In this document: positions 2,140 to 46,414 of the stretch, one piece after another
Numbering within the stretch: the stretch's first letter is position 1
Layout of the letters: every line of letters begins with the position of its first letter
DNA from: Thiotrichales bacterium
Lineage (GTDB): Bacteria; Pseudomonadota; Gammaproteobacteria; Beggiatoales; Beggiatoaceae
Length of the DNA: 64,000 bases
Assembly: GCA_016744475.1 (NCBI GenBank)
Contig: JADGEH010000001.1
Location: 1-64,000, forward strand
Reading direction: 5' to 3'
The notes under the pieces: generated by a model
Told to the model about the DNA's origin: nothing
What the model saw: the letters and a program-made list of their open reading frames with translations, nothing else
Databases searched by the model: none
Made by a program: the position numbers and the translations under genes

Positions 2140-4125
2140 ATGAATATGAAAAAACCAAGCCATAGCCTGTATCTAGCTCTCATTCTAGGTATGCTATTGA
2201 TGCTAAACATACCTAATAGCTATGCTTTTTGCTATTACTTAACCAATAGCGAAGGTGATGAATACAACTCTATCTTTCCGCCTTATAGTTTAAGTTATCC
2301 ACGTAATACCCCTTTAAGTCGTAAAGAGATTAAATACCGTCAACATCTTGGGCATTTAAGCATTACCTTAGATCGCACGGGTTGTAGTCGAGAGCCTTTT
2401 CCTGCTCATGTATTAAATCCTGAACCGCCAGAACCTGAACCTCCAGCTATCCCCGCACCTCGCCGCACAACACCACGTTATGGGGCATTTCCCCCGCCAG
2501 TGAAAGAAGAAGCTGCACCCATGCCTATGCCTGTCGTAGATGAACCAGAACCTATTCCAGAACCCATTGAAACCCCGCCTCCACGCGAAAAAACCGCCCC
2601 CACCACAGCGCTAACAGAAATTCATATCTTAGATACGCTGGGTTCGATGGATTCTGCTTTAAGCCGTAAAGATTTAGAGATGTATCAAGCCTATTTAGGG
2701 GAAGAATTATCCATTACTCAATCGGTACCGGATAAACCGCCTAAACAGAAAACCCTGTCGCGGGTGGATTATGTCAGTGATTTACAACAACAATTACAAC
2801 GGGTGTCAGAGTATAAAATCCAGCATAAAAAAGTGCAGATTCATCTTGATCTTGACACCAATACCGCCGAAGTCGCTTCTCTAGTCAGTTTAACGGGAAC
2901 TTATAAAAATAATTTACCCATCAATACGGAATACCGTGAGGTGGCTATATTTGCTTGGGACAATGTTTTGAAGCAAGCAGTGCTACAAGAACTCACCATG
3001 CAGCAAGAACAAGCCGATACGAAGGAAGAAACAGCAGTTGTTGAAACCAATAAGGTGGATAGTGGAGATTTTTGTGCAGAAGTCGGTAAGCCCTCCAAAG
3101 TCGATTGTAAAACCTTAGTGTCGTTATATAACAGCACCGGTGGCATACAATGGCAGAAAGTACACGGTTGGATGCAAACTAAAGAACCGTGTCAATGGTC
3201 AGGCGTGAGTTGTTCCACCAACCGCGTGGTTGGACTCAATCTAGTACGTAAGAAACTCCGTCATAAATTACCTGATTTATCGGCTTTAACACATTTAACC
3301 GAACTGCGTTTAGCAAAAAATAAACTCAGTGGTGAAATACCTGATTTCAGTGCTTTACGACGCTTGAAAATATTGGATTTATCAAGGAATAGTTTGAGTG
3401 GTCAAATACCTGATATGAGTGCATTAAAACAGCTAGAAGAATTCAGTGCAGCACATAACAACTTGAGTGATTCTATCCCTGTGATGAGTACATTAAGTAA
3501 ACTGAAAGTCTTGGAGTTAAATAACAATAAGCTGTCAGGAGAAATGCCCGATTTAAGCGCCTTGACACAATTGCAGCGTTTAAAACTCAGCTATAACCAA
3601 TTAGAAGGGGCGCTGAAGGGCGTGGATAAACTGGTTGAATTACGCGAAGCATATTTGCATAAAAATCAGTTTACAGGCTCAATTGAGGCTATCTCACAAT
3701 GGAAACAAATTCGTAAATTGTACTTAAATAATAATCAATTTAGTGGCAATTTACCGGCATTCGATAAACTCAGTCGATTAGAAAAACTCAGTGTTGCTCA
3801 TAATCAACTGAGCGGTGTTTTACCACCGAGCTTGAATGAACTGCGCGATGTGGAATGGTTACAATTAAATGATAACCAATTGACAGGGCCGATTCCTGAT
3901 TGGAGACATCTTAAACGCCTGAAAATTTTTGATGTGTCTAACAATCAACTCTGTGGTGAAGTACCTATGTGGTTAAGTGAAGGCGGTTTACAGAGAGATA
4001 ACAGCAGTTTGAAGCTGTTAAATAATCGTTTGACGGCAAATAACCCTACAATGAAAGCCTTTTTGGATGAAAAAGCCCCAGGCTGGCATTCTTCACAACA
4101 ACCTCCTCCTGCGACCTGCCCCTAA
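2140..4125 (+). CDS. Exported leucine-rich-repeat protein with NTF2-like middle domain
   Basis: I place the start at the ATG at 2140, just after the upstream stop, because it gives a clean signal peptide (MNMKKPSHSLYLALILGM..., cleavage near NSYAF). A Pro/Glu-rich linker with many PEP repeats follows. Next is a region that looks like a SnoaL/DUF4440-type fold (about residues 160-290). A capping segment has the CxW..GVxC pattern seen before plant-type LRRs. About ten LRRs then follow with the consensus LxxLxLxxNxLSGxIPD. These are plant-specific-type repeats, which in bacteria are usually found on secreted or surface proteins. A ligand is unknown. The stop overlaps the moaE start (TAATG). Confidence 0.85.
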   Translation: MNMKKPSHSLYLALILGMLLMLNIPNSYAFCYYLTNSEGDEYNSIFPPYSLSYPRNTPLSRKEIKYRQHLGHLSITLDRTGCSREPFPAHVLNPEPPEPEPPAIPAPRRTTPRYGAFPPPVKEEAAPMPMPVVDEPEPIPEPIETPPPREKTAPTTALTEIHILDTLGSMDSALSRKDLEMYQAYLGEELSITQSVPDKPPKQKTLSRVDYVSDLQQQLQRVSEYKIQHKKVQIHLDLDTNTAEVASLVSLTGTYKNNLPINTEYREVAIFAWDNVLKQAVLQELTMQQEQADTKEETAVVETNKVDSGDFCAEVGKPSKVDCKTLVSLYNSTGGIQWQKVHGWMQTKEPCQWSGVSCSTNRVVGLNLVRKKLRHKLPDLSALTHLTELRLAKNKLSGEIPDFSALRRLKILDLSRNSLSGQIPDMSALKQLEEFSAAHNNLSDSIPVMSTLSKLKVLELNNNKLSGEMPDLSALTQLQRLKLSYNQLEGALKGVDKLVELREAYLHKNQFTGSIEAISQWKQIRKLYLNNNQFSGNLPAFDKLSRLEKLSVAHNQLSGVLPPSLNELRDVEWLQLNDNQLTGPIPDWRHLKRLKIFDVSNNQLCGEVPMWLSEGGLQRDNSSLKLLNNRLTANNPTMKAFLDEKAPGWHSSQQPPPATCP

Positions 4126-4556
4126 TGATTCATATCATCGACTCCGCGTTTAATCCTTGGGAACATCTGCAAGCCGCAGAACAACGCTTACACACTCAAC
4201 GAGGTCGTTGGGGAGCTATGGTAAATTTTACAGGTACTATGCGGGAGTTCAATCAAGGCGATACCGTACAAGGTTTGTTTTTGGAACATTATCCCGGTAT
4301 GACTGAAGCCTATTTGCAACGAATTAGCGAGCAGGCTCACACGCAATGGGCACTCCTAGATACCTTGATCGTGCATCGTGTGGGCGCTATGCAACCGGGT
4401 GATACCATTGTGCTGACGGCGGCTTGGGCGGCACATCGCACGCCCGCATTTGAAGCGTGCCGTTATTTGATTGAAGAACTCAAACATCACGCTCCATTTT
4501 GGAAACGAGAAACACTCAAAGAAGGACAGCGATGGGTGACGGAAAACACTGCCTAA
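4125..4556 (+). CDS. moaE: Molybdopterin synthase catalytic subunit MoaE
   Basis: MoaE is the large subunit of molybdopterin synthase, which transfers sulfur from MoaD thiocarboxylate to precursor Z (cPMP). The 143 residues carry the family signatures: GAMVNFTGTMR near residue 30, LEHYPGMTE (53-61), HRVG (84-87), HR (104-105), and the two active-site lysines in ELKHHAPFWKRE (Lys120 and Lys127, matching E. coli Lys119 and Lys126). The start overlaps the LRR gene stop by one base. No moaD, moaA or moaC lies in the window, so the partner subunit must be encoded elsewhere. Confidence 0.95.
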   Translation: MIHIIDSAFNPWEHLQAAEQRLHTQRGRWGAMVNFTGTMREFNQGDTVQGLFLEHYPGMTEAYLQRISEQAHTQWALLDTLIVHRVGAMQPGDTIVLTAAWAAHRTPAFEACRYLIEELKHHAPFWKRETLKEGQRWVTENTA

Positions 4557-4596
4557 CATACTGTTTTAAATAATGACTTAACAAGAGAAAAATACT

Positions 4597-5898
4597 TTGA
4601 CTACGCTTAGCATTATCGGCGGTCGTGTCATCGAACCCGACCACCGACGAGAGACCCTTCAAGATGTACACATTGCAGAAGGCAAAATTATTGCCCTCGG
4701 AAAAGCCCCAGAAGGCTTTGATTCCAAACGGACTATTGATGCCAGCGGTTGCGTGGTCAGCCCCGGATTAGTGGACTTAGCCGTGCATTTGCGCGAACCC
4801 GGTGCCGAACACAAATCCACCATTGTCAGCGAAACCCGTGCAGCAGCGTGTAATGGCATTACCACCTTAAGTTGTCCACCTCACACTCAACCTGTGATTG
4901 ACACGCCAGCGGTGGCAGAATTATTACAGCAGCGTTCTGAATCCAGTGGCATGAGCCGTATTTTACCCTTAGCCGCACTCACGCAAGGCTTAAAAGGCGA
5001 GCATTTAGCTGAAATGGCGGATATGAAAGAAGCGGGTTGCGTCGGCGTGAGCAACGCTTTACATCCCATTAGCAATACGCGCGTATTGCGCAATGCGCTG
5101 GATTATGCCGCCAGTTGTGGCATGACCGTATTTGTTTATGCGCAAGATGCTTGGTTAGGTCGCGGTGGTTGTGCGCATGAAGGGCCGGTGAGCACGCGCT
5201 TAGGTTTGCCCAGTATTCCGGCTAGTTCAGAAACGATTGATGTGGCGAGACATTTATTATTGGTGGAAGAAACCGGCGTGCGTGTGCATTTTTGCCGTTT
5301 ATCCACGGCTCATGCGGTGGATATGTTACGTGAAGCCCAGGCTAAAGGTTTACCCGTGACGGCTGATGTCAGCGCTCATCAACTGTATTTGACGGAAATG
5401 GACATCGCGGGTTATCAAACGCAATGCCACGTCTATCCGCCGTTGCGCAGCCAACGCGACCGCGATGGCTTGCGCCAAGGCGTGCGAGACGGCACTATCA
5501 GCGCGATTTGCTCTGATCACCAACCGCATGAACCCGATGCCAAGCTCGCTCCCTTTGCCAATACTGAACCGGGTATTTCTGCGTTAGATACCTTATTACC
5601 GCTGAGCCTACGAGTGGGTAAAGAATTAGATATGTCTGTGCCAGAAATATTAGCGCGTTTAACTTCACAGCCCGCCAAAATTCTAGGTAATGCCTGTGGT
5701 TGTTTAAAGATAGGCAGTCCGGCAGATATTTGTATTTTTGATCCCCACTTAGAATGGACTTTAACCCCAGAAAGCATGTATTGCCATCGTTACAATACGC
5801 CTTTCTTAAATTGGTTATTAGAAGGACGCAATGTTTGCACCTTGCTTGGTGGTCGTGTTGCTTTTGAAGCCGATGGGTTGAAACAGCACTCAGCCTGA
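4597..5898 (+). CDS. pyrC': Dihydroorotase-like protein lacking catalytic metal ligands (PyrC'-type)
   Basis: The 433-residue protein aligns by eye along its whole length with class I dihydroorotase (amidohydrolase fold), for example HLREPG at 64-69 and SDHQPH at 306-311. Most metal ligands are changed: the HxH motif reads A62-V-H64, the usual SDDG aspartate position reads SNAL (Asn153), the H178 position is Tyr181, and the H231 position is Arg234. Only Asp307 of SDH remains. This is the pattern of the non-catalytic PyrC' that stabilises aspartate transcarbamoylase PyrB in pseudomonads. Here pyrB is not adjacent. The start is TTG, since no ATG precedes the conserved IIGGRV segment; RBS support is weak (AAGAGA). 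Confidence 0.85.
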   Translation: MTTLSIIGGRVIEPDHRRETLQDVHIAEGKIIALGKAPEGFDSKRTIDASGCVVSPGLVDLAVHLREPGAEHKSTIVSETRAAACNGITTLSCPPHTQPVIDTPAVAELLQQRSESSGMSRILPLAALTQGLKGEHLAEMADMKEAGCVGVSNALHPISNTRVLRNALDYAASCGMTVFVYAQDAWLGRGGCAHEGPVSTRLGLPSIPASSETIDVARHLLLVEETGVRVHFCRLSTAHAVDMLREAQAKGLPVTADVSAHQLYLTEMDIAGYQTQCHVYPPLRSQRDRDGLRQGVRDGTISAICSDHQPHEPDAKLAPFANTEPGISALDTLLPLSLRVGKELDMSVPEILARLTSQPAKILGNACGCLKIGSPADICIFDPHLEWTLTPESMYCHRYNTPFLNWLLEGRNVCTLLGGRVAFEADGLKQHSA

Positions 5899-5979: not shown

Positions 5980-6912
5980 TTAATCCACTTTCATCGTGAC
6001 CATAGGAGCTTTTTGGTTTTTAGTCCATTCATGTAAAGAACCATCATACAATTTAACCTGTTTATTGCCTAATATTTCACTCAAAACAAACCAACTGGCA
6101 GCGGCATAATGACCGCTATTGCAATAAGTAATGCTAGGGGCTTTCGTATCAACCTTTAATGCTTTTAATGCAGTATTGAGTGTGTCTTTAGAATAAAGAT
6201 TTGCAGGGGCTTTCCAATGCGTGACCAGTGATGGGGGGAAATGCTTAGCTGAAGGAATATGGCCCTTATTGTAAACATAAGATTTTATGGATAGACCTAA
6301 ATAGAAATCTATGCCTCTGGTATCGACTAATTGTATTCCATCGTCATTCATGGCTTGTTCAACGTCTGCGGTGGTGGCTAACATCTCTTTGCGCTCAGCG
6401 CGTGCTGTAAAATCACCTGCTTTAGGGGGGGCGCTCTCAGTGCTGACTGGGCGTTTTTCTGCCTTCCATTGGGCAAAACCGCCATCGAGCAAAGCCACAT
6501 TATCGTGACCAAAATACTTCAGCGTCCAGTACACACGCGCTGCTTTGCCTAAAGTATCGACATTTTTACCGAGATGATTGATGACGATAGCGCTGTCATT
6601 ATTGACTCCCAAACTGCGCATAGTGGCTTCAAAAGCCGCTTTTTCGGGCAACATTTTAATGAGTTTCACATCATTGACGACTTTTTTAGCACGCGCCTGC
6701 TTTTTCCAGTTCATAAAAATAGAACCCGGAATGTGGCCTTTAGCAAAGCTTTCGGGTTTTTTACGCACATCAATGGTCAGCACTTCATTTTGATGCGTCG
6801 CTAACCACTCCGTGTTGACCACAGGCCCTGGGACTTCAACAGCCACAGCCAGCGGACTCAATAAGCCCCCTAAACTCAGGCCAGCGGCGATACAAAAGTG
6901 TTGGATTTTCAT
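5980..6912 (-). CDS. Periplasmic thiosulfate/3-mercaptopyruvate sulfurtransferase (tandem rhodanese)
   Basis: The 310-residue protein has an N-terminal signal peptide (cleavage near LAVAV) and two rhodanese domains. The N-terminal one has TIDVRKKPESFAKGHIPGS and lacks a catalytic cysteine. The C-terminal one has VDTRG, KGHIPSAKHF and the active-site loop YCNSGHYA with Cys264. The length is that of standard SseA-type sulfurtransferases plus a signal sequence, so it acts outside the cytoplasm, moving sulfane sulfur from thiosulfate or a similar donor. The loop sequence does not decide between thiosulfate and mercaptopyruvate. It is transcribed alone, ending at the terminator at 5921-5966. A periplasmic rhodanese fits an organism with active sulfur metabolism but does not prove it. 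Confidence 0.9.
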   Translation of the reverse strand: MKIQHFCIAAGLSLGGLLSPLAVAVEVPGPVVNTEWLATHQNEVLTIDVRKKPESFAKGHIPGSIFMNWKKQARAKKVVNDVKLIKMLPEKAAFEATMRSLGVNNDSAIVINHLGKNVDTLGKAARVYWTLKYFGHDNVALLDGGFAQWKAEKRPVSTESAPPKAGDFTARAERKEMLATTADVEQAMNDDGIQLVDTRGIDFYLGLSIKSYVYNKGHIPSAKHFPPSLVTHWKAPANLYSKDTLNTALKALKVDTKAPSITYCNSGHYAAASWFVLSEILGNKQVKLYDGSLHEWTKNQKAPMVTMKVD

Positions 6913-7019
6913 ATAAAGGCTCCTTTGGATTCAGCATTAATGGTTAGGTTTTTATAGTCATTGCGATTAAGCAACAGCCACAATATAGCAAAAAGACATC
7001 CGTTGTAGTACTCAAACTA

Positions 7020-7049
7020 TCCGCTTTAAGCGCTTTAAGCGCTTTAAGC
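7020..7049. repeat. Short tandem repeat of GCTTTAAGC
   Basis: Three consecutive nine-base units of CGCTTTAAG lie between the rhodanese start region and the methyltransferase stop. Adjacent units form GC-rich palindromes. No function is evident. Confidence 0.75.
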
Positions 7050-7050
7050 A

Positions 7051-7797
7051 TTAAGACTTCTCTAACACCAGTAACTTATAAAAATAATTCTGGGTTTTGT
7101 AAGCCAGTTCTCGTTGTTTTAAGCTCTGCATTAAACCTTCCAGCCGTTGCTCACTGATGTTTAAATCAAACAATACTGCTTCACGTTGTTGTTCTATGGC
7201 TTGAATTAAATAACTAATAGACGGTGCGGTATCTTTTGTGATGTCGGTATAGTTTTGAATTTTAAAGCCCGTATTCGGCAGCCCTTGATCTAACACCTGA
7301 CACAGAGAAGCCGTCATTTCATCCATGATCACCACTTGTCCGCCTGGGTTTAATAACGCCTGACATTTTTGCAATAACACGGTAGGTTGAATGTATTGCG
7401 CAGACTCTTGAAAAACAATGACATCTAACGGGGTTTGTGTCTGAAACTGTTCAAAAGCAGTGTGTACAAAGTGGGGCAAAGTGGGCATGTCCTGCAAACG
7501 ATGACGTGCATATAAAATCTGATGATTATCGGGCGTGATGCCCGTGTAATCGTAGCCCATCTCGCTCAAACGCCGTGCTGTCGTGCCTAGCCCAATGCCG
7601 ACTTCTAATAAGTGCTTCGGTGCAGGCGGTAGCGCCTTTAGCAACATCTCGGTGGCGGCTTGTTGAGCCTCTGATAAGCTCATGCCATCCTGCCACAGGC
7701 CATAATGTAAATAACTCAATGTGGTTTCTTGCTTCCACAAGGCTTGCGCGTAGACATTGAGGGGAAAACTTAAGGTCGGAAAGAGTATTTCATACAT
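7051..7797 (-). CDS. Class I SAM-dependent methyltransferase
   Basis: The 248-residue soluble protein has the Rossmann-fold SAM-binding motif I LLEVGIGLGTTA (residues 63-74), an acidic residue after strand 2 region (YTGITPDNHQI), and motif IV-like PLDVIVFQESAQYI. This supports methyl transfer from S-adenosylmethionine, but the acceptor is unknown. The conserved N-terminal part (FGLW-like HYGLWQDGMSLSEAQ) recalls cyclopropane-fatty-acid-synthase or small-molecule methyltransferases. It stands alone between oppositely oriented genes. Confidence 0.82.
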   Translation of the reverse strand: MYEILFPTLSFPLNVYAQALWKQETTLSYLHYGLWQDGMSLSEAQQAATEMLLKALPPAPKHLLEVGIGLGTTARRLSEMGYDYTGITPDNHQILYARHRLQDMPTLPHFVHTAFEQFQTQTPLDVIVFQESAQYIQPTVLLQKCQALLNPGGQVVIMDEMTASLCQVLDQGLPNTGFKIQNYTDITKDTAPSISYLIQAIEQQREAVLFDLNISEQRLEGLMQSLKQRELAYKTQNYFYKLLVLEKS

Positions 7798-7935
7798 GAT
7801 AAGGGTTTCGCTGTGCGTGTATTGAACAATAGACAGGATTATAGCGCTATACTAAAGCGTTTTTCCTCAAAGTCTGTATGAATACAGGGTATTTGCTGCT
7901 GTGTTTATAAAGACGCTCAAGCTTAAGTCTAAAAA

Positions 7936-9054
7936 ATGCAAAATCACGAATACTACATGGCACATGCGCTGCGCTTAGCAGAAAAAGGATTGTGGACCAC
8001 CGAACCCAATCCACGAGTGGGTTGCGTCTTAGTCAAAGACGGACGCATTGTCGGCGAAGGCTGGCACCAGCGGGCTGGAGAATCTCACGCAGAAATCCAC
8101 GCGCTCAAGGCCGCAGGCGAGCAGGCACGCGGAGCCACGGCCTATGTCACGCTAGAACCCTGCTGTCATCATGGACGCACGCCGCCGTGTACGCAGGCGT
8201 TGATCAATGCAGGGGTGACGCAGGTGATTGCTGCGATGGAAGACCCCAATCCGCAAGTGGCAGGACAAGGTTTACAGCAATTACAAGCCGCTCGTATCGA
8301 CACCCTTAGCGGCGTTTTACAAGCCCAAGCCGAAGCCTTAAACCCTGGCTTTATCAAACGGATGCGTGAAGGCCGCCCGTATGTGCGAGCGAAAATGGCG
8401 ATGAGTCTGGATGGTCGCACTGCGATGGCTTCCGGCGAAAGCCAATGGATTACCGGAGCGGCGGCTCGTCAAGACGTACAAACCCTACGCGCACGCAGCT
8501 CAGCAATTGTCACAGGCATCGGCACCGTACTCACCGATGACCCGTCCATGACCGTGCGAGCCAGCGATTTACCCCTTCATTTAGAACAACCCGAATCCCT
8601 GCGCCAGCCGCTGCGCGTCATAGTCGATGCGAATTTGAGTATGCCTGTTCATGCCAAAATGCTCAGCTTACCGGGGAAAACGCTGGTTTTTACGGCAACA
8701 GATGATCTTGATATGCAAGAAGATTTACGCGAAGCAGGCGCAGAAGTCGTGTACTTACCCAGTCGAGAAGGTTATGTCGATTTTGTCGCCATGTATCAAC
8801 AACTGGCTGAGCGTGAAGTCAATGAAGTGCATTTAGAGGCGGGGGCAAATTTGGCGGGAGCCATGCTGCAAGCGCAACTGGTGGATGAAGTGATGATTTA
8901 TATGTCCCCCACCTTGATGGGCGACAAAGCGCGAGGATTGTTTCACTTGCCGCACTTAGAACAACTTGAACAACGCCTGCATTTAGACATCACCGACATG
9001 CGAGCCGTGGGGCAAGATTGGCGCATTAGCGCTCGCGTCTTGTACAACGTATAA
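7936..9054 (+). CDS. ribD: Riboflavin biosynthesis bifunctional deaminase/reductase RibD
   Basis: RibD catalyses the second and third steps of riboflavin synthesis from GTP: deamination of the diaminopyrimidine ribosyl phosphate and NADPH reduction of the sugar. The N-terminal deaminase has the zinc site HAE (His51, Glu53) and PCCHHGRTPPC (Cys76, Cys85). The reductase domain starts near residue 147 with RPYVRAKMAMSLDGR. The 372-residue length is normal. No strong ribosome binding site is visible. Other rib genes are not in the window. The following GldF-GldG gene begins only 7 bases after the stop. Confidence 0.96.
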   Translation: MQNHEYYMAHALRLAEKGLWTTEPNPRVGCVLVKDGRIVGEGWHQRAGESHAEIHALKAAGEQARGATAYVTLEPCCHHGRTPPCTQALINAGVTQVIAAMEDPNPQVAGQGLQQLQAARIDTLSGVLQAQAEALNPGFIKRMREGRPYVRAKMAMSLDGRTAMASGESQWITGAAARQDVQTLRARSSAIVTGIGTVLTDDPSMTVRASDLPLHLEQPESLRQPLRVIVDANLSMPVHAKMLSLPGKTLVFTATDDLDMQEDLREAGAEVVYLPSREGYVDFVAMYQQLAEREVNEVHLEAGANLAGAMLQAQLVDEVMIYMSPTLMGDKARGLFHLPHLEQLEQRLHLDITDMRAVGQDWRISARVLYNV

Positions 9055-34048: not shown

Positions 34049-34525
34049 ATGAACCCCATCGTCTACCTCGAATCCTCCGTCATCAGCTACTTAACCGCCA
34101 AACCCAGTCGTGATGTGGTTATTGCCGGGCGGCAGGCGATTACCTCGGATTGGTGGGAAAACCACCGGCAGCACTTTGAATTGCGCGTTTCCGCCTTGGT
34201 GGAAGAAGAAATCAGCCAAGGCAATGCTATGGCGGCACAACGCCGTTTGGACTTGATTCAGGACATTCCCAATTTGGTGATTTCCGATGCGGCGACGGAA
34301 CTGGCTGAATTGCTGATAAAACAAGGCGCAGTGCCCAAAGGCAGCGAGGAAGATGCCTTGCACATCGCCATTGCCGCCGCGCAAGGCGTGGATTATTTGC
34401 TCACTTGGAATTTCAAGCACATCAACAACGCGGCAACCCGTAACCGTATCGTAAAAATTGTTGAAACCTATGGTTTCACCTGCCCATTGCTGTGTTCTCC
34501 CGAAGAATTAGGAGCTTTAACATGA
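34049..34525 (+). CDS. PIN-domain toxin (VapC-like RNase)
   Basis: The 158-residue protein starts MNPIVYLESSVISYLTAKPS, has an acidic residue in ALVEEEISQG, and ends its active-site set with GSEEDALHIAIAA and YLLTWNFKHINN. This is the four-acid PIN pattern, with Glu in place of the first Asp (YLESS). Such toxins cleave RNA. Its stop TGA overlaps the ATG of the next short gene by three bases (ATGA), typical of a toxin-antitoxin pair, here with the toxin first. Expression signals are weak. Confidence 0.82.
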   Translation: MNPIVYLESSVISYLTAKPSRDVVIAGRQAITSDWWENHRQHFELRVSALVEEEISQGNAMAAQRRLDLIQDIPNLVISDAATELAELLIKQGAVPKGSEEDALHIAIAAAQGVDYLLTWNFKHINNAATRNRIVKIVETYGFTCPLLCSPEELGALT

Positions 34526-34695
34526 TAAACGACCCAATTGTGGAAGAAGTACGCCATTTCCGCCAACTGCACACGGAAAAGTACCAGCATGATTTGAAAC
34601 GCATCGTCAAGGCTTTGCGTGAAAAAGAACGAGCCTCGAAACGCCCTTTGCTCAACTCTGGGCCAAAATTATTTACAGATGTAAAAGCATCCTGA
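34522..34695 (+). CDS. Putative antitoxin of the PIN toxin
   Basis: The start ATG at 34522 is preceded by AGGAGCTTTAA. The 57-residue product opens NDPIVEEVRHFRQLHTEKY and is highly charged. Small proteins of this kind regularly follow PIN toxins of the upstream type. The last residues (GPKLFTDVKAS) run into the point where the opposite-strand TIR-CHAT gene loses its normal sequence, so the C-terminus may be a hybrid created by the rearrangement. Confidence 0.72.
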   Translation: MINDPIVEEVRHFRQLHTEKYQHDLKRIVKALREKERASKRPLLNSGPKLFTDVKAS

Positions 34696-37214
34696 ATCCC
34701 GCGCCGCGCCAATTCGGGCGCGAGTAACACCAGCGCCCGCGCATGTCCGTGCAGGCTGTCCACCAGTTTTTCTAATTCTTGTTGTGCCTTGTCGTAGTCC
34801 TGAGTATGTTGCGGAGAAGGCAGCGGGATGCCTTTTTGTGCCAACACTTTCGCCAATAAATCCAGCGCGTCGTGATGATTCAATGCGCCGAGTTGCACAG
34901 TGTTGTGCGCAAACGGTGCGGGGAGTTGTTCGCGGGAGGTGAAGAGGATGCGGGTGTGTTTGGATTGTAGGCATTGCGTGGCTAAACCTGACAGGTTTTG
35001 GAAACCTGTCAGGTTTGAACCCATCAACGACTCGCAATTATCAAACACAATCAAACAGGGCGCATCTGCCAAGGCGCGTTGCACCTGCTGCAAACTTTCT
35101 TCATCACTTTGCTGCGCCACCGACCATTTGGGCAATAACTGCCGCCCCAGTGCATCCAGCATGGCGCGTTGGCTGTGGCGGTGTTCGACGCTGACAAAGG
35201 CGACCCGCTGCACCCGTCGAGTACGCACAAACCAACGCGCCAGTTCACATGCCAAAGTGGTTTTACCCGCGCCGCCGATGCCGCGCAAAACGGCGTAAGG
35301 TTGGGTCAATAACAAGCGTTCCAGCGCCAGTAATTCGCGGCTGCGCCCGACGAAATGATGCGGCGGGGTGTCGGGCAAGTCGCCGAGGCTGAGGCGTTGC
35401 TGCTGCGCCGCCAGTACGCTCATGCGCTCGCTGGGCAGGGTGTTGAATAACAAGGGGTCGAGCTGTTCTTGATACAGCACCGGCACAAACCAATCCTGCA
35501 AACGCAACTCGCCCACGCCTTCGAGATAACCACGCACCGTGTCGCCGTGTAATTCACGTTGCCCCGCCAACATCGCCGAGCCAACCCGTTTGCCCGCTGC
35601 CAAGCTGCGATAAAAAGCACCGACAAAGCGCCGTGCGGTTTCCACCAACACGCTATGGCTCATCGCCACCACTGAACTCACGCCCGTTTGCAGCAAGGAA
35701 GCCGCCACCGAGGCATTGATTTTGTCCTCGCTTTGCGCGGTTTGACAGGCTTCGAGGAATACCAAAGGGATGCGGTGTTGGTTTAAGGTGTTCGCCAATG
35801 TGTCGGCATGGACTAACGCCGTGCGGCGTTTTTGTAATGCTCGTGCCAGCGCTTCGCGCGGCATGGACGACGGGCGCTCTGCGCCCACGGGTGCGCGGAG
35901 CGCAAAACTGTCGTGCGGCGCAGAGCGCTCGCACGAGATAGAGGCAGGGTCTTCAAAACACAACGCGCCCAGCCCTTTGCGGCGGTCATACACCCCATGC
36001 CCGTCGAAATGCACCACATGGAAAGGCTTGCCCGCATCGAACGCGGCTTGCAGGGCTTTTTCCATCGCCGGAAAAGTCGGCGGGCTGAGTACCGTCAGTT
36101 CCGCCAAACCACCCAAGTCGGCAAGCGCCTCGGTCAAAGGCAAGGCGCTGACGCGGTGGTCGATGTACGCCGTGCCTTCTTGTTCAGGACGCGGGCTGAT
36201 GAGCAAGACGCGGATGGGTAAATCCAGTTTGAGATGAGCGCGAGGGTCGTGATTCGGCAAACGACGGCGCACATGCGCGGGTTTTGCGCCTTGGAATAAC
36301 CAGCCGTTTTCGTTGTGTAATAACTCCCACGGCAAGGCGAGTAACTCGGTGGCGGCGGTGTCGGTTTGTTTTTTTTCTTCCTTGCTTGCACCGTCCAGTG
36401 CGGCGTTGTCCACTTCGATAGAAAAGCGTTGATCGCCGCTGTCTGCTTGCCATTGCTGGAAAATGGCGCGGGCTTTTTCGGTGGCTAAAGCGGCTTGGTG
36501 CAAAGTCGTGCCCCAGCGCGGTAACTGTGCTTCGATGACTTCGCCACGGTCTTTGAATACGCCCACAGGCCAGCCCAAATACTGCTCCAAATACCAGCTT
36601 AAATCCTCGGCTTCGATAGCACCGATGGGCGCGATGAAGCGAAAAGGTGGGCTGCTAACGCTGGGTGTTTTATCGCTGGGGTGGTAAACCAGTTCTGCCC
36701 TCGCGCTGTAACGGCGGCTGTTGTCGTCTTGCAGGGTTTCTTGTGGGTCGTAGAGTTTAAGCAGTAATTCCGCCAGCGGCTTTTCTTCAACGGTGCTGGC
36801 TTGGTTTGAGCCATCGGGGAGTTGTTTGCCAAGGGCTGCGAGGAGATCGGGGAGGATGAAGTCGATGGTTTTGTCGGACTGGTGGGTCAGCGCGTGTAAA
36901 TCTGCGCCGACTAAGGCTTGTACTAAAACGTGCTGCACTTCGGGAAAACATAAGGGTACAATTTTTTTCTTGTGTTGTTTTGCCCAGTTGATTTCTTGGA
37001 TAACCCACGCGGAGTTGACGCTGTTGAGCGTGAACACCACCAGCACATAGTCGGCTTGTTCGATGTGTTGCTGGATTTGTGGCGTGAGCGCATCGCCTGC
37101 GCTGAGTTCGCGGGTGTCTAGCCATGCGTCTATACCGTGCTTTTCTAAGGCTTCGCGCAGGGTTTGGACAAAGGTTTTGTCTTTGCTGGAATGGGAGATG
37201 AATACTTGCGGCAT
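34693..37214 (-). pseudogene. TIR-CHAT-NB-ARC STAND protein, truncated (TPR end lost)
   Basis: Domains in order: TIR at 1 to about 130 (FISHSSKDKTFVQ, SAWVIQE with the likely NADase Glu74); a linker; a CHAT caspase-like protease at about 330-560 with the His in HFDGHG (His406) and Cys490 in FLEACQTAQ; and an NB-ARC ATPase with P-loop GIGGAGKTT (645-653), LIVFDN (721-726) and ILFTSRE. This is the plan of a STAND-type immune sensor in which a C-terminal repeat array detects a trigger. The expected TPR array is missing: after RRGIQ (about residue 841) the frame runs antisense through the antitoxin gene until a stop at 34476. The N-terminal part could still be translated. All catalytic residues named are intact. 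Confidence 0.85.
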
Positions 37215-37568: not shown

Positions 37569-39308
37569 GTGCGTAAAGTGAGTGTTCTGAAATATATAGA
37601 CTTGTTCACAAAAGAACCGAAAGAACCTGATGAGGTAGGGGCTATGCAATTTGATTATGCCTACGCTGGCAACACCGCAGTGGATAACAGTGCCACCAAT
37701 ACGGGTTTATCTTTTGCCCCTGATCTCACCCGCCCTCCCACGTATTTTCGCGGCGAGCTGCATCACAGCGTGGCGTTTCGTGAAGCCATCAGCGCTTTAC
37801 ATGCCGTGGTCACGTCTGATTTACGTTTCCAACCTAAAGATAAAACCGCCTACAAAGCCTGGGCTGAACAGCGCGAATGGGAAGAATGGGGCTTACTGCA
37901 AGCTGAAATCAGTGGACAGCGTAGCGACGTGGTGCAACGCATTGATACTTTGCAAAACAAGTTGCGTGTGTTGACAGACAATCACAGCCAGCGTATGCGT
38001 CCGTTTTACCAAGCCAGACAGCAATATTTTGATTATTTATATCAACGTGACAAAGATGCTTGGTTTGTTCTTGATCCGGTGATCACGGTTCATCCTGATG
38101 AAATCTTTTTTGAGTGCTTTAGCCAAGATGAATCTTCTTACGGACGCTTAAGCGTGGATTATGAGATGTTCAAACATGTCGGCGAGTTTGCTTGCGGCAC
38201 CACTAATATTGATTATTCTGAAAACCTTTACCAAGAATTCCAAAAAATCCGCAGTTATAAAAGTACGCAATTTGAAGTTGATCCCTCCGGTTTTGAAGTT
38301 CAAACCCAACATGAAGATGATTACCGCGAAGTCAAAATAGATTTGCCTGATTCTTGGGTACGCGGCTTTTTGCAAGTCAGTTCAGCCATGAATCTACCCG
38401 CCACGCAGTTGCAATTGCATCCTTTGGATGTGCATAATTTCTGTTTTGTTCTGCGCCGTCATAAAGAAACCCACGGCCCGCGTGCTATGCGCTTTTGCTT
38501 AACGCCCGGTGCGCCGATTGAAGTGGTGTTTGAACCTTGGGATATTAAAGTCCGTTGTCCGCGTTCTATTTATCAAGGGGATAAAGCGCAAGATATTCGT
38601 GTTTGGGGACGGCGGCGTTTATTGATCCTGGAGCGCTTAATTCCGTTAGCCAAAAGTTTTACCTTGCACTTGCTCGGCACGGGTTTGCCGTGTTTTTATG
38701 TCGCCGATTTGGGCAATATGTGGTTTACTTTGGGCTTATCGGGTTGGACAGCCAATGACTGGAGCACGGCGGGTCACTTTGATCTCATGGCACCCCGTGC
38801 GCAGGTCGATCAATCGACTCGCCAAAGCGTCTTCAAAGCTTTAGAGCACAGTTGGTGGGCTAAGCCAGAAGACTTAGCCCGCAGCTTGGACATGGATAAA
38901 GCGCAGGTGTTGGGCGCTTTAGGCCAATTGACCCAAGCTGGACGAGCGATTTTTGATTTGAATAAGCAGGTGTATCGCCGCCGTGAATTAAGTCGTGAGC
39001 CTTTGCCAATGGACAGTTTGCGTTATGCCAATGAACGCGAAGCCCGTGCAGATCGTTTTGTCCAAGACAATGCCGTAAAATTGAAGCAAAGCCAGCGCGA
39101 TCTGCAAAATTTGCTGCATTTAAGCGGACAAGTCAAAGATAAAAATAAACAGTACCGCGTGCAATTGCATATTGATACTGATGAGCGTTTGCGCGAAGCT
39201 ACATGCACTTGCAATTGGTTTCAGCAGAATAAATTGTACAAAGGCCCTTGCGAACATATACTCGCTCTGCGTGCAGAATTTTCCAGACAGAATCAGTATA
39301 AAATTTAA
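37569..39308 (+). CDS. Retron-associated winged-helix/SWIM zinc-finger protein
   Basis: The 579-residue soluble protein ends in a SWIM zinc finger with the CxCx12CxH pattern (Cys546, Cys548, Cys561, His563). A winged-helix-like region precedes it at about 411-470 (VFKALEHSWWAKPEDLARSL, QVLGALGQLTQAGRAIFDL). The N-terminal 400 residues are not recognised. SWIM fingers bind nucleic acid or protein. A protein with exactly this pair of domains (WHSWIM) is the named accessory of one retron type. The start at 37569 is GTG; GTG at 37578 and ATG at 37641 or nearby are alternatives. The retron RNA begins 10 bases after its stop, and the RT follows. Confidence 0.85.
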   Translation: MRKVSVLKYIDLFTKEPKEPDEVGAMQFDYAYAGNTAVDNSATNTGLSFAPDLTRPPTYFRGELHHSVAFREAISALHAVVTSDLRFQPKDKTAYKAWAEQREWEEWGLLQAEISGQRSDVVQRIDTLQNKLRVLTDNHSQRMRPFYQARQQYFDYLYQRDKDAWFVLDPVITVHPDEIFFECFSQDESSYGRLSVDYEMFKHVGEFACGTTNIDYSENLYQEFQKIRSYKSTQFEVDPSGFEVQTQHEDDYREVKIDLPDSWVRGFLQVSSAMNLPATQLQLHPLDVHNFCFVLRRHKETHGPRAMRFCLTPGAPIEVVFEPWDIKVRCPRSIYQGDKAQDIRVWGRRRLLILERLIPLAKSFTLHLLGTGLPCFYVADLGNMWFTLGLSGWTANDWSTAGHFDLMAPRAQVDQSTRQSVFKALEHSWWAKPEDLARSLDMDKAQVLGALGQLTQAGRAIFDLNKQVYRRRELSREPLPMDSLRYANEREARADRFVQDNAVKLKQSQRDLQNLLHLSGQVKDKNKQYRVQLHIDTDERLREATCTCNWFQQNKLYKGPCEHILALRAEFSRQNQYKI

Positions 39309-39318
39309 CAACGATTTC

Positions 39319-39536
39319 GGACAAACCTGGGAAGCTACTCTTGCAAACGGGCGGCGGATCGCCGTCCATGCAGTATGACTCCCCACGCATCATCGGCTCG
39401 CTCTTGATAGTGCGGGACAAGCTCTAGTGTGGCCATTACGGTGAGGGTTCTGTGAACCTAATAGCCACACTAGAGCGTCCCGCTTGAGTTGAGCGATCCG
39501 ATTCTGAGACTCTGCGAAGAGCGCCCAGGTTTGTCC
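39319..39536 (+). ncRNA. Candidate retron msr-msd non-coding RNA
   Basis: The 268-bp gap between the SWIM gene and the RT gene is highly structured. A perfect 13-bp inverted pair, GGACAAACCTGGG (39319-39331) and CCCAGGTTTGTCC (39524-39536), bounds it as the a1/a2 repeats of retrons do. Just after a1, AAGC offers a candidate priming guanosine (39334). An msr-like stem GGGCGGCG/CGCCGTCC lies at 39349-39367. The msd-like hairpin has GCGGGAC, an AA bulge and GCTCTAGTGTGGC (39412-39433) against GCCACACTAGAGCGTCCCGC (39464-39483), with a GGTTC/GAACC tip. Limits and the priming site are inferred, not measured. Confidence 0.82.
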
Positions 39537-39576
39537 TCCTTTTCCTTCCTTTTGACCTTCTACGCGGTGAACCACC

Positions 39577-40980: not shown

Positions 40981-40990
40981 GGCGATGACG

Positions 40991-43900
40991 ATGAAGCTAA
41001 TCAAACAAGCCTTACTTGCCTATCAGGGCGGGAACTCGGACAAAGTATACGAAGTCGATCTATGCGAAGTCGGCACGGATCAATATGTGGTCAATTTTCG
41101 CTACGGACGACGAGGCGCTGCTTTAAAAGAAGGCAGTAAAACGCCCTTGCCTGTTAATCGGGACAAGGCAGAAAAAGCTTTTGATACATTAGTCAACAGC
41201 AAGCTGAAAAAAGGCTATTACGATACCCAAGCGGGTATCAGTGTGCCTGAGACAGCCTCAGTTGCAGCCATTGAAGAAGCATCACCCGCTGTAGTCACAC
41301 TCAGTGATCCCAGAAAACAAGCGGTCCTGGATCGCCTTGCTGCAAGTTTTCAAGCACCTGAAGCAAAAAACCAAAAGCCTGCTAACAAAGGGGTATTGTC
41401 TTGGCTCAAGCCTTCGGCAAAAAAAACAAATAAACCCACTGCTTGGCCTTTAGATCGGATTATCTGGAGAGCCGGTGAATTAGCCATAAGCGAAGCCGAG
41501 CCGTACTTGCTACGCTTGCTCGATCCCCAAGATCAAGAACGTAATTATTGTGTGATTTATGCATTAGGTCGCTGCGGATCAGAAGCTTCTGTACTCGTTT
41601 TGCAGCGCTTTTATGCTACTCAAGGCACACCGGACATGCTCAAGCGTTTGGCAGGTGAAGCCTTATATGCTTGCCTCAGCGATAGCGAGCGCGAAAAATT
41701 CCAAGCACAACGCTTAGCCGCATTGCCCAAATCAGTGCAAACCGCTTTGCAGGCCAGCGATACAGACGCCTTACAAACCCTGGTGACGGATATCTTAGCA
41801 GCGGGCAAAGCCGATGATTACTGGTTGCTCACTCAGCTTTATCAATATGCCCGCCACGACGCATCACAAAACAGCCCTGCACGCACTGCCCACTCTGTGC
41901 TACTGAACTTGCTACGAGATGCGCCACTAAAACCCAATTGGTTTAAGCGGATTAGGCATATTTTTAAACTAGCGGAATACCGTGAAGACGGAGCCATGTT
42001 TGGCTTATTGGCCTATCGTTTTGATAAACAAGGGGCGGCATTCAACATCAGCGGCTGGGGCGGAGTCCGTTTTCAGGATGAAAAAGGGCGTTATCATTAT
42101 TTGGATGACGACGAGCTGCAACGACACATGGCTTCACCCAAATCTCATTTAGCCTACAGCAATAAAACCCGTGACTATTTGCGGCGGCGGGTGTGGCGCA
42201 CTTTACGCCGCTTAGGCGAACAAGAGGCTCCCTCTTATGTGGTCTTAGCCACCGAGATTTTACTGCACATTAATGACAGCGATGCACAAGCCCCTCAAGC
42301 CATCCGCTTAGATCATTGGGACTACCGCGATAATGATTGGCATCACCGCGTCACCACTAGCCACTTTGATCGCTTCGCGGCCTATTGGAGTTTTAACCAT
42401 ATCCTCTATCAAAATAGTCCACGTTATGAACCCACCAGCACTTATCGCTGGCGTTGTCGCGGGGATTACCGCCCCGACATGGTAGCCCCCGAAGGCGTGC
42501 TTGAAGAAGCTTTCCCCACTTTATGGCGACAGGTTCCAGAAAAATTACTCCACCTGCTACAACACAGCCATTGCCAGCCCGTGCATGATTTTGCCGTGCG
42601 TGCTCTAGGCGATTGCGAAGCGTTTTGCCAGCAATTATCGCTAGACACCTTAGCCGCTTTGCTGCACAGCCTGTACGAAAGCACCGCCCAATTTGCGTTT
42701 GACTTAGCCAGCCCGCGTTACAACCCCAAACAACCGCAAAGCGACTTAGTGTTAGCCGCATTAAGCTGCGTGGCTCCCAAAGCGAGAGAAGCCGCACAAG
42801 CTTGGGTTGCTCAAGGACGCACTTACTTTCTTCAAGACAGCGCCTTTCTCGCCGCCTTTATCAGCAATGAACACGCTGATACCCGTGCTTTTGCTGAACA
42901 ATTTTTACGCAGTGCCAGCCTCAGCGACACCGTAGCGCAAGCCTTATTAGGCCGTTTAGTCGGCGAATTACTCATCTTAAGTGAAGAACAACAAGCCCGC
43001 GCAGCCGATATACATCGCATTTTGCGCCAAACCCTAGGGCCACAATTGCGCTTACTCAGCCTGCCCGTTTTAGAAGATTTACTCCGCGCTCCGGCAGTCG
43101 CCGTGCGCGAACTCGCTGCCGATGTGTTGCTCAATCATTATTCGGCTGAAGAAGTGCCAGAACATCTGCTGCATCTCTTGTTAGAAGCCGAGCACGACAC
43201 CCTACGCGGTTTCGGTATGCGGATACTAGCTCGCTTAAGCGATGCCGTATTGATGCAACGTAGCGAATTGCTCGTCGTCTTAGCTGCACGCCCACAAGTT
43301 GAAGTCAGCGGTGCCGCGCTCGATTTAATCCGGCGTTTATTGCCGCAAGACAAAGCCTTTGCACAGCACATCACCTTGTTATTAGTGAGTCGATTATTAT
43401 CGCCAAAACTCAGCACTGACAGCGCATCCAACCTAGTCCACTTGTTAAAACAAGACTGCCGCGACGAATGGCAAGCCGTGCCCACTGAAAGCGTTTGGCG
43501 CTTGCTCCGCGCCCGTGTGCCGCAAGCCCAAGAATTTGGTGGATTACTACTGCCCTTACGTGCTCAACCCGAAGACTTCAGCGTCAAACAATGGGTTAAA
43601 CTCGCCGATCATGACATCCTCAGCATCCGCGAAGCCGCACGACACATGTGCTCAGCACAATTGCCCCGCTTGCGCGAGCAGATGCATATCAGCGTGAAAT
43701 TATTAGATGCGCAATGGGAAGACAGTCGCACCTTTGCCTTCCAACTGTTCCGCGAGCAATTCACCAAAGAAGACCTTACGCCCAGCGTTTTAGTCAGTAT
43801 TTGTGACAGCGTGCGCCCAGAAGTGCAGCAGTTTGGTCGGCAATTATTGATGCAATACTTCACGAAAGATGATGGTCAGGAGTATTTGCTCAAGCTCAGC

Positions 43901-44230
43901 GAGCACCCCGGTGCGGACATGCAATTATTCGCCAGCCATTATCTGGAACGCTACGCCTGCGACAATCCGCAACGCTTAGCGCAACTCGCCCCCTATTTCC
44001 TCGCAGTGCTCAACAAAGTCAACAAAGGCCGCATCGCCAAACAGCGGATTTATCATTTCTTAGAAGCCGAAGCGCTGAAGACCTCAGAAGCCGCACACAT
44101 CATTGCCCCCATCGTGGCAAGGCAATCCGTGAGCATGGCGATCAGCGACAAAGCCGCCACCATCCGCATCATGGCGCGTATACAACAGCTTTATCCCGAA
44201 GTTGAATTGCCCTTGCGGCGGGTGTCTTAG
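40991..44230 (+). CDS. Retron-associated WGR and HEAT/ARM-repeat protein
   Basis: I choose the ATG at 40991, because GAGGCG over the RT stop gives a ribosome binding site at good distance; ATG 40985 or TTG 40967 are alternatives. The N-terminal 75 residues form a WGR-like domain (YEVDLCEVGTDQYVVNFRYG, AEKAFDTLVNSKLKKGY), a nucleic-acid-linked module known from PARPs. The rest, to 1079 residues, is built from helical HEAT/ARM repeats (EPYLLRLLDPQDQERNYCVI, ILSIREAARHMCSAQLPRL). There is no enzymatic motif I recognise. Such a protein is the ARM component reported with SWIM-type retrons. Its role, probably effector or regulator of the RT-msDNA complex, is inferred. Confidence 0.85.
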   Translation: MKLIKQALLAYQGGNSDKVYEVDLCEVGTDQYVVNFRYGRRGAALKEGSKTPLPVNRDKAEKAFDTLVNSKLKKGYYDTQAGISVPETASVAAIEEASPAVVTLSDPRKQAVLDRLAASFQAPEAKNQKPANKGVLSWLKPSAKKTNKPTAWPLDRIIWRAGELAISEAEPYLLRLLDPQDQERNYCVIYALGRCGSEASVLVLQRFYATQGTPDMLKRLAGEALYACLSDSEREKFQAQRLAALPKSVQTALQASDTDALQTLVTDILAAGKADDYWLLTQLYQYARHDASQNSPARTAHSVLLNLLRDAPLKPNWFKRIRHIFKLAEYREDGAMFGLLAYRFDKQGAAFNISGWGGVRFQDEKGRYHYLDDDELQRHMASPKSHLAYSNKTRDYLRRRVWRTLRRLGEQEAPSYVVLATEILLHINDSDAQAPQAIRLDHWDYRDNDWHHRVTTSHFDRFAAYWSFNHILYQNSPRYEPTSTYRWRCRGDYRPDMVAPEGVLEEAFPTLWRQVPEKLLHLLQHSHCQPVHDFAVRALGDCEAFCQQLSLDTLAALLHSLYESTAQFAFDLASPRYNPKQPQSDLVLAALSCVAPKAREAAQAWVAQGRTYFLQDSAFLAAFISNEHADTRAFAEQFLRSASLSDTVAQALLGRLVGELLILSEEQQARAADIHRILRQTLGPQLRLLSLPVLEDLLRAPAVAVRELAADVLLNHYSAEEVPEHLLHLLLEAEHDTLRGFGMRILARLSDAVLMQRSELLVVLAARPQVEVSGAALDLIRRLLPQDKAFAQHITLLLVSRLLSPKLSTDSASNLVHLLKQDCRDEWQAVPTESVWRLLRARVPQAQEFGGLLLPLRAQPEDFSVKQWVKLADHDILSIREAARHMCSAQLPRLREQMHISVKLLDAQWEDSRTFAFQLFREQFTKEDLTPSVLVSICDSVRPEVQQFGRQLLMQYFTKDDGQEYLLKLSEHPGADMQLFASHYLERYACDNPQRLAQLAPYFLAVLNKVNKGRIAKQRIYHFLEAEALKTSEAAHIIAPIVARQSVSMAISDKAATIRIMARIQQLYPEVELPLRRVS

Positions 44231-45755: not shown

Positions 45756-45962
45756 ATGGAAAATCTAATTATAGAAACCTGTGTGCATCAAGGTGGCGTG
45801 ACTTTGCATGATTTACCCTTAAAAGATAATACGCCCGTGAAAATAATCATTATTCCACGCACCCACTTACAGCGTTTATCGTTTCGACAAACCCGTGTGT
45901 TATTGCAAGATATTCAGGGTGATTTATCTGATGACGTGGCAGAAGAACGAGCCAGGGGATGA
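45756..45962 (+). CDS. Antitoxin of VapBC-type pair
   Basis: This is a 68-residue protein with a short beta-rich N-terminus (IIETCVHQGGVTLHDLPLKD) and a charged helical tail. Its stop TGA (45960-45962) overlaps the ATG of the PIN toxin (45959), the usual antitoxin-first arrangement. GGTGGAGTG precedes the ATG. The fold class is not obvious, but the position makes the antitoxin role likely. Confidence 0.78.
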   Translation: MENLIIETCVHQGGVTLHDLPLKDNTPVKIIIIPRTHLQRLSFRQTRVLLQDIQGDLSDDVAEERARG

Positions 45963-46414
45963 ATTATTTTTTCGATACCAGTGCTTTAGTGAAGCTCTAC
46001 CACGCAGAAACGGGGTCTGAACGCCTGGAAACAGAGTTGTCACGCTTTGCAGATGATTTGATTATCAGTGTTTCAGATTTGAGTCGCATTGAGTTTTACT
46101 CAGTCATTTTGAAAAAAGTGCGCACTAAAGACATTAAACATGATAAAGCCAAACAAGCCTTGGCTTTGTTTGAGCAAGATTGGGGGGAATTTAACTGTCT
46201 TGTGGTGGATGGCACAGTCAAGACAAATGCTGCCGAGTTACTGAAAAAACTCGCGCCTACTGCAAACCTTGGTACATTGGACGCACTGCAATTATCCACC
46301 GCATTGCTTGCGCACAAAACCTTAGCTGTGGATTGTTTTGTCACTGCTGATAAACGTTTACTGAGTTTTGCAGCTATGTATTTTGAGACGTTTAATCCTG
46401 AGCGGCAGGCTTAA
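45959..46414 (+). CDS. vapC: VapC-family PIN-domain toxin RNase
   Basis: The 151 residues match the PIN fold: FFDTSALVKLYHAE with the first Asp, a conserved Glu in DLSRIEFYSV, GTLDALQLSTAL with the third acid, and FVTADKRLLSFA with the fourth. VapC toxins cut tRNA or rRNA when the antitoxin is degraded. It is translationally coupled to the upstream antitoxin by a 4-base overlap. It ends the accessory region that begins near 29.8 kb. Confidence 0.9.
   Translation: MNYFFDTSALVKLYHAETGSERLETELSRFADDLIISVSDLSRIEFYSVILKKVRTKDIKHDKAKQALALFEQDWGEFNCLVVDGTVKTNAAELLKKLAPTANLGTLDALQLSTALLAHKTLAVDCFVTADKRLLSFAAMYFETFNPERQA

Follow-up and report, generated by a model that had tools for sequence, protein, structure and literature searches.

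Sequence and structure of a probable type XIII retron ncRNA in a Thiotrichales bacterium, with its candidate priming site and a predicted clamp-like partner protein

The segment at positions 39319–39536 of the window, the whole stretch of 64 000 nt analysed here (Thiotrichales bacterium, assembly GCA_016744475.1, contig JADGEH010000001.1, positions 1 to 64 000 of the forward strand), is very probably the msr-msd ncRNA of a complete type XIII retron, a reading that includes the pairing of its ends and priming at G39343. Judged from sequence, the operon is a complete retron of this type in four parts, namely a SWIM gene, the ncRNA, a reverse transcriptase (RT) gene and a WGR gene, and the RNA has the architecture, the family membership and the conserved and covarying structure that this reading implies. 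From what is known of other retrons we infer msDNA production and a probable function in phage defence. Retrons are phage defences and genome-editing tools. Type XIII is reportedly a class in the Mestre et al. 2020 classification; no mechanistic study of type XIII retrons was found in the searchable literature, and searches there for retrons of type XIII or with SWIM or WGR yielded no useful paper.

Material and methods

Type XIII profiles were taken from PADLOC-DB 2.0.0. The comparison set comprised 80 homologous loci and the window (81 in total), drawn from Gammaproteobacteria, Alphaproteobacteria, Betaproteobacteria, Myxococcota, Cyanobacteria, Bacteroidota, Planctomycetes and others. Perfect inverted repeats with a span of 200–245 nt were sought in the 450 bp that precede the RT. 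A covariance model was trained on 44 ncRNAs, and 35 of the 79 loci that it recognised lie outside this training set. For the covariation test, 44 ncRNAs were aligned with MAFFT and the plain alignment was used. MAFFT leaves a1 unaligned with a2 because the spacers vary, and these flanks were therefore tested by comparing the pairing within one ncRNA with that between different ncRNAs. At L017, L022, L044, L045 and L052, and at the L003 copy starting at 4123, the motif search took the wrong site, so that the flank scores there are too weak. The AlphaFold (AF2) model of the SWIM protein was built from 34 sequences (mean pLDDT 75; clamp core mostly 73–96).

Results

The SWIM, RT and WGR genes are closely packed on the plus strand (PADLOC profiles), and the RT_XIII, SWIM_XIII and WGR_XIII profiles were matched almost end to end. 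The SWIM stop codon ends at 39308, a1 begins 11 nt later and a2 ends 40 nt 5′ of the RT start (39577). The original prediction had placed the segment between a SWIM and an RT gene and just 5′ of the latter, in agreement with the gene calls. Three profile matches and an ncRNA 5′ of the RT are shared with other type XIII retrons, whereas the order SWIM-ncRNA-RT-WGR was found, among the 81 loci, only in the window and in Beggiatoa sp. SZUA-411 (L003); the commonest order is WGR-SWIM-ncRNA-RT, and RT-WGR-SWIM is found in some. A further genome from the window's own family (G035) gave the same matches as the L003 genome. Just upstream of the retron, 34476–37214 on the minus strand encodes a 912-aa protein with TIR, CHAT (caspase-like) and NB-ARC domains, likely a further defence or cell-death gene. 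A PIN-domain protein (PF01850) is encoded near the retron at 45959–46414 on the plus strand and is possibly a VapC-type toxin.

The elements that had been read from the letters of the segment were recovered in place (table 1): the 13-bp perfect a1/a2 inverted pair bounds exactly 218 nt, the msr GC stem forms a hairpin, the 20-bp msd hairpin has its AA bulge and its GGTTC/GAACC tip, and the outer stem TCGG.CGCTC/GAGCG.CCGA falls within the arms listed. The 3′ arm of the outer stem begins inside a conserved GAGUUGA element (39486–39492). In the CGAAG element, C and G are invariant and AAG is conserved in at least 90% of the aligned ncRNAs. Folding of 39310–39576, which had been proposed as a check, gave −115.6 kcal/mol (z = −6.5), and none of 200 dinucleotide shuffles was as stable. 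At gathering thresholds, Rfam gave three tRNAs only in the window and matched no RNA family at the segment. The window carries one ncRNA copy, and no second was found in its own genome.

Table 1. Positions of the retron features in the window and of the two-copy ncRNAs at comparison loci.
Feature	Position	Strand	Basis
SWIM_XIII gene, 554 aa	37644–39308	+	PADLOC SWIM_XIII 3.1e-240; Pfam SWIM 3.3e-8
a1 repeat GGACAAACCTGGG	39319–39331	+	sequence, inverted-repeat search
CUCUU, 5′ arm of priming mini-helix (family core CUU)	39338–39342	+	conserved, covarying; pairs with AAGAG 39517–39521
Candidate priming (branch) guanosine in CUUGC	39343	+	conserved column, motif table, PMC6868368 location rule
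msr hairpin, 8 bp, 3-nt loop	39349–39367	+	fold, covariation
Outer stem 5′ arm, TCGG.CGCTC	39392–39403	+	covariation
msd hairpin 5′ arm GCGGGAC-AA-GCTCTAGTGTGGC (7 bp, AA bulge, 13 bp)	39412–39433	+	sequence, fold, covariation helices 4–5
msd tip hairpin GGTTC...GAACC	39446–39458	+	helix 7 covariation
msd hairpin 3′ arm GCCACACTAGAGC-GTCCCGC	39464–39483	+	as for 5′ arm
Outer stem 3′ arm, GAGCG.CCGA	39491–39502	+	conservation, covariation
Conserved CGAAG plus AG	39515–39521	+	AAGAG 39517–39521 pairs with 39338–39342
a2 repeat CCCAGGTTTGTCC	39524–39536	+	sequence
RT_XIII gene, 467 aa	39577–40980	+	PADLOC RT_XIII 3.6e-187; motifs; closest solved chain retron Ec86 RT
WGR_XIII gene, N-terminal WGR domain and long HEAT/ARM solenoid	40988–44230	+	PADLOC WGR_XIII E 0; Pfam WGR
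Two ncRNAs, L003	2674–2892 and 4123–4343		
Two ncRNAs, L020	231–700		
Two ncRNAs, L040	5206–5950		
Two ncRNAs, L049	3906–4412		
Two ncRNAs, L050	5057–5560		

The structure covaries across homologues, as the original prediction demanded of a true msr-msd RNA. RNAalifold proposed 38 pairs, 33 of them with double-sided changes; inclusion of the CUU/AAG helix brought the count to 41 pairs, of which 35 showed a double-sided compensatory change. Over these 41 pairs, 90.7% of cells were paired against 67.2% in shuffles, and 466 cells were double-changed against 155.5. The covariation score was 0.642, compared with 0.217 in shuffles and 0.11–0.17 with slid partners; the aligned sequences are not all independent, and the slid controls, which keep their relatedness, agree with the shuffles. 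In the msr hairpin 99.7% of cells were paired and five of eight pairs showed double changes, as did eight of the ten pairs of the outer stem and all five of the msd tip (helix 7). Mean flank pairing was −26.4 kcal/mol within the same ncRNA and −12.2 kcal/mol between different ones. Covarying stems, retron RT motifs and PADLOC type XIII neighbours thus agree on the msr-msd reading.

The segment belongs to a family found in several phyla. A perfect inverted repeat of at least 10 bp lies 5′ of the RT at 55 of the 81 loci, where dinucleotide shuffles give an expectation of 1.6. A repeat of 8–18 bp spanning approximately 208–239 nt precedes the RT at 64 of the 81, and in all 64 a1 is followed by a CUUGC-like element and a2 preceded by a CGAAG-like one; only 39 of the 64 a1 sequences are distinct, and the sequences are not all independent because related Chitinophaga, Methylobacterium and Nannocystis groups are included. 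The covariance model, which had also been suggested as a check, recognised the ncRNA beside 79 of the 81 RTs, the window included, with all matches on the plus strand and none elsewhere in the 1.06 Mb searched. It found no ncRNA at L008 and L018, and the RT of L008 has no detectable SWIM or WGR. A sequence profile from which the window and its nearest relative, L003, had been left out still recovered the segment (E 2.2e-33). The ncRNA is present in five of 369 sampled genomes of the class. No type XIII relative was found in IMG/VR, where the best viral-contig RT match was 35%, and no match to the Phytobacter ncRNA-RT stretch was found in E. coli genomes.

At the cyanobacterial loci L004, L005, L008 and L010, the approximately 2 kb 5′ of the RT holds an RNase III-looking ORF (e.g. 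L004 5250–5960), preceded by an NYN/LabA-like ORF; at L004, L005 and L010 the ncRNA lies beyond both. The RNase III-like ORF may be a host gene that marks a site of insertion, or may be a partner that processes RNA.

In some relatives a single RT is accompanied by two to four or more ncRNAs, whose frame is common to the copies while their a1/a2 and msd stems differ. These arrays are a lead from the relatives and stand apart from the finding in the window. Two each are present at L003, L020, L040, L049 and L050 (table 1). The Aureispira locus L015 (1–910) has at least four, with a partial copy at the edge of the contig. At L184 (minus strand, 4085–5001) and at L185 (7797–8717) four copies lie in a head-to-tail row that adjoins the RT on its 5′ side, and four were detected at L187 (minus strand, 6800–8143). 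Among the L184 and L185 copies the frame is approximately 76–92% identical, and msd stems within one array are 48–67% alike; three msd stems are common to both loci at 79–92%, in a different order. Since stems recur between genomes and differ within arrays, they persist as distinct sequences. No mention of such arrays was found in the searchable literature. L186 (7638–13628) has a divergent type XIII-like array of which three copies were scored; a 935-aa protein and a divergent SWIM gene (33%) follow downstream. No RT was found on this stretch, which ends just past the SWIM at the contig end. Between the two Beggiatoa sp. SZUA-411 ncRNAs (L003 2893–4120), small ORFs resemble an MqsR/MqsA-type toxin-antitoxin pair.

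The RT of the window has NAxxH (NATPH) at residue 232, YADD at 340 and VTG at 388, corresponding to the region X, core and region Y hallmarks of retron RTs (PMC6868368), and corresponding patterns are present in all 81 homologues. Among solved structures, the nearest to it are those of the retron Ec86 RT and other retron RTs.

The SWIM gene probably begins downstream of the listed GTG (37569), at the ATG at 37644, which is M26 of the GTG ORF and nearly invariant among homologues. Residues 59–400 (GTG-ORF numbering) are predicted to form a PCNA-like sliding clamp. A Foldseek search with these residues gave E 4.6e-10, and the best 50 matches listed were all PCNA, alone or in clamp-loader complexes. 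In a fold comparison of the predicted model, 234 of 245 residues aligned at an rmsd of 2.9 Å (Z 19.5). In a second structure library the model matched viral PCNA and phage clamps, so that two libraries agree on a two-domain clamp fold in the predicted model. The resemblance to PCNA and 9-1-1 clamps is in predicted fold; the SWIM protein differs from them in its approximately 10% identity, in a predicted coiled-coil hairpin inserted at 93–160 and in a predicted C-terminal SWIM zinc finger after the clamp core. Sliding clamps diverge widely in sequence. No Pfam clamp profile was listed for the 34 SWIM members at E up to 10, and the relation is therefore remote; a shared clamp fold, moreover, does not by itself show function. 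The phage collection held no match to the SWIM protein, and Kaur et al. 2020 makes no mention of PCNA, SWIM or WGR. A distant SWIM relative in Diaphorobacter sp. HDW4B (NZ_CP049906.1; L189 6752–13085), 26% identical over the clamp and SWIM part, has an integrase and two DUF6493 genes as neighbours, and the annotation there shows no RT; a SWIM/HEAT pair may thus exist without a retron.

The WGR protein was modelled with a pLDDT of 88, and no recognisable enzyme domain was found by Pfam, in the predicted structure or by PDB fold search. A function based on PDB matches of its solenoid was considered and dropped, these being generic HEAT proteins with TM-scores of at most 0.24.

Discussion

The RNA follows the plan of Retron-Eco1 (Ec86, type II-A), with an a1/a2 helix, a priming G at its inner end, an msr hairpin, a long msd hairpin and the RT downstream. 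It differs from Retron-Eco1 in having UUGC for UAGC and an extra stem that encloses the msd hairpin; the partner proteins are different, and the RT has a long N-terminal extension.

In the mechanism proposed here, by analogy with characterised retrons, a1 and a2 of a single transcript would pair and the helix would continue to the CUU/AAG duplex, leaving G39343 at its inner end. The RT would bind this RNA and use G39343 to start a 2′-5′ linked DNA. Copying would probably begin at about 39516, run leftwards across the outer stem and the long hairpin, and give an msDNA of perhaps 110–125 nt. RT, RNA and msDNA together would restrain both partner proteins, and phage interference with the msDNA or the complex would release them. 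The least certain step, which we put forward tentatively, is that the SWIM protein (predicted PCNA-like) and the WGR-HEAT solenoid would then block replication and thereby halt the growth of the infected cell; a decoy clamp could be loaded on DNA, for example, or the polymerase or clamp loader titrated away. A replication-directed effector restrained by an RT-msDNA complex would be the most economical reading.

The clamp-like SWIM protein could instead be a sensor that docks the retron complex at forks, with the WGR-HEAT protein or the msDNA as the acting part. Of the two partners SWIM is the better conserved, with a mean column identity of 58% as opposed to 32% in WGR, and clamps ordinarily recruit other proteins to DNA, both of which fit a sensor, but the WGR protein likewise lacks a recognisable enzyme domain; this arrangement is conceivable, if somewhat doubtful.

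The priming G of known retrons is found within the inner end of the a1/a2 stem or immediately past it, as a rule in UAGC (PMC6868368). The original prediction had favoured the G of AAGC right after a1 (39334), which adjoins the perfect repeat and stands within AGC, the usual context under that rule. AAGC, however, is not conserved and has no counterpart in homologues, the nearest relative having CTTTAAGAC, and G39334 is quite unlikely to be the branch nucleotide. The priming G is probably G39343 in CUUGC (39340–39344), because this base is conserved and a covarying CUU/AAG mini-helix, by which a1/a2 is lengthened, ends immediately before it. A short spacer separates the a1/a2 helix from the mini-helix, whose form in the window is CUCUU/AAGAG; of its pairs, one is CG in 41 cases and UA in two, another UA in 41 and AU in three. 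Columns T23-T24-G25-C26, which include G39343, are conserved in at least 90% of ncRNAs, and where the window has UUGC, the canonical UAGC (CUAGC) stands at this element in the four Nannocystis loci L017, L022, L044 and L052.

The position of the segment in a 268-bp intergenic gap just 5′ of the RT start would also suit a role as structured leader, attenuator or terminator for the RT gene rather than as a template. However, no terminator-like site was found at the segment, the form of the ncRNA is retained where the RT lies 2 kb away (cyanobacterial L004–L007 and L010), and tandem duplication of the ncRNA at other loci is unexpected of a leader; we regard such a role as highly improbable. Weak matches of the RT to the Drt2, Drt3a and Drt4 profiles might suggest an antiviral RT of the DRT type, outside the retrons, that has an ncRNA of its own. 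This is hardly credible: these scores lie far under the cut-offs, retron RT profiles score much higher (PADLOC RT_XIII 621 bits, the next best 327), and both the retron motifs and the a1/a2 repeats are there.

The msr-msd RNA thus belongs to a known, little-studied retron type, in which the clamp fold and the arrays could be new. Its model is supported by covariation, and the specific priming base that it proposes can be tested by one mutation. The predicted clamp fold turns the question of the effector into a concrete hypothesis about replication. For the type as a whole, we suggest with due reserve a replication-clamp defence, in which the PCNA-like clamp-SWIM and WGR-HEAT proteins would be held by msDNA and act at the fork, and in which, in some bacteria, one RT would serve up to four or more msDNA templates with different stems, which would give a single system several sensors. 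Template arrays beside one RT may be of practical use, giving several DNAs from one enzyme.
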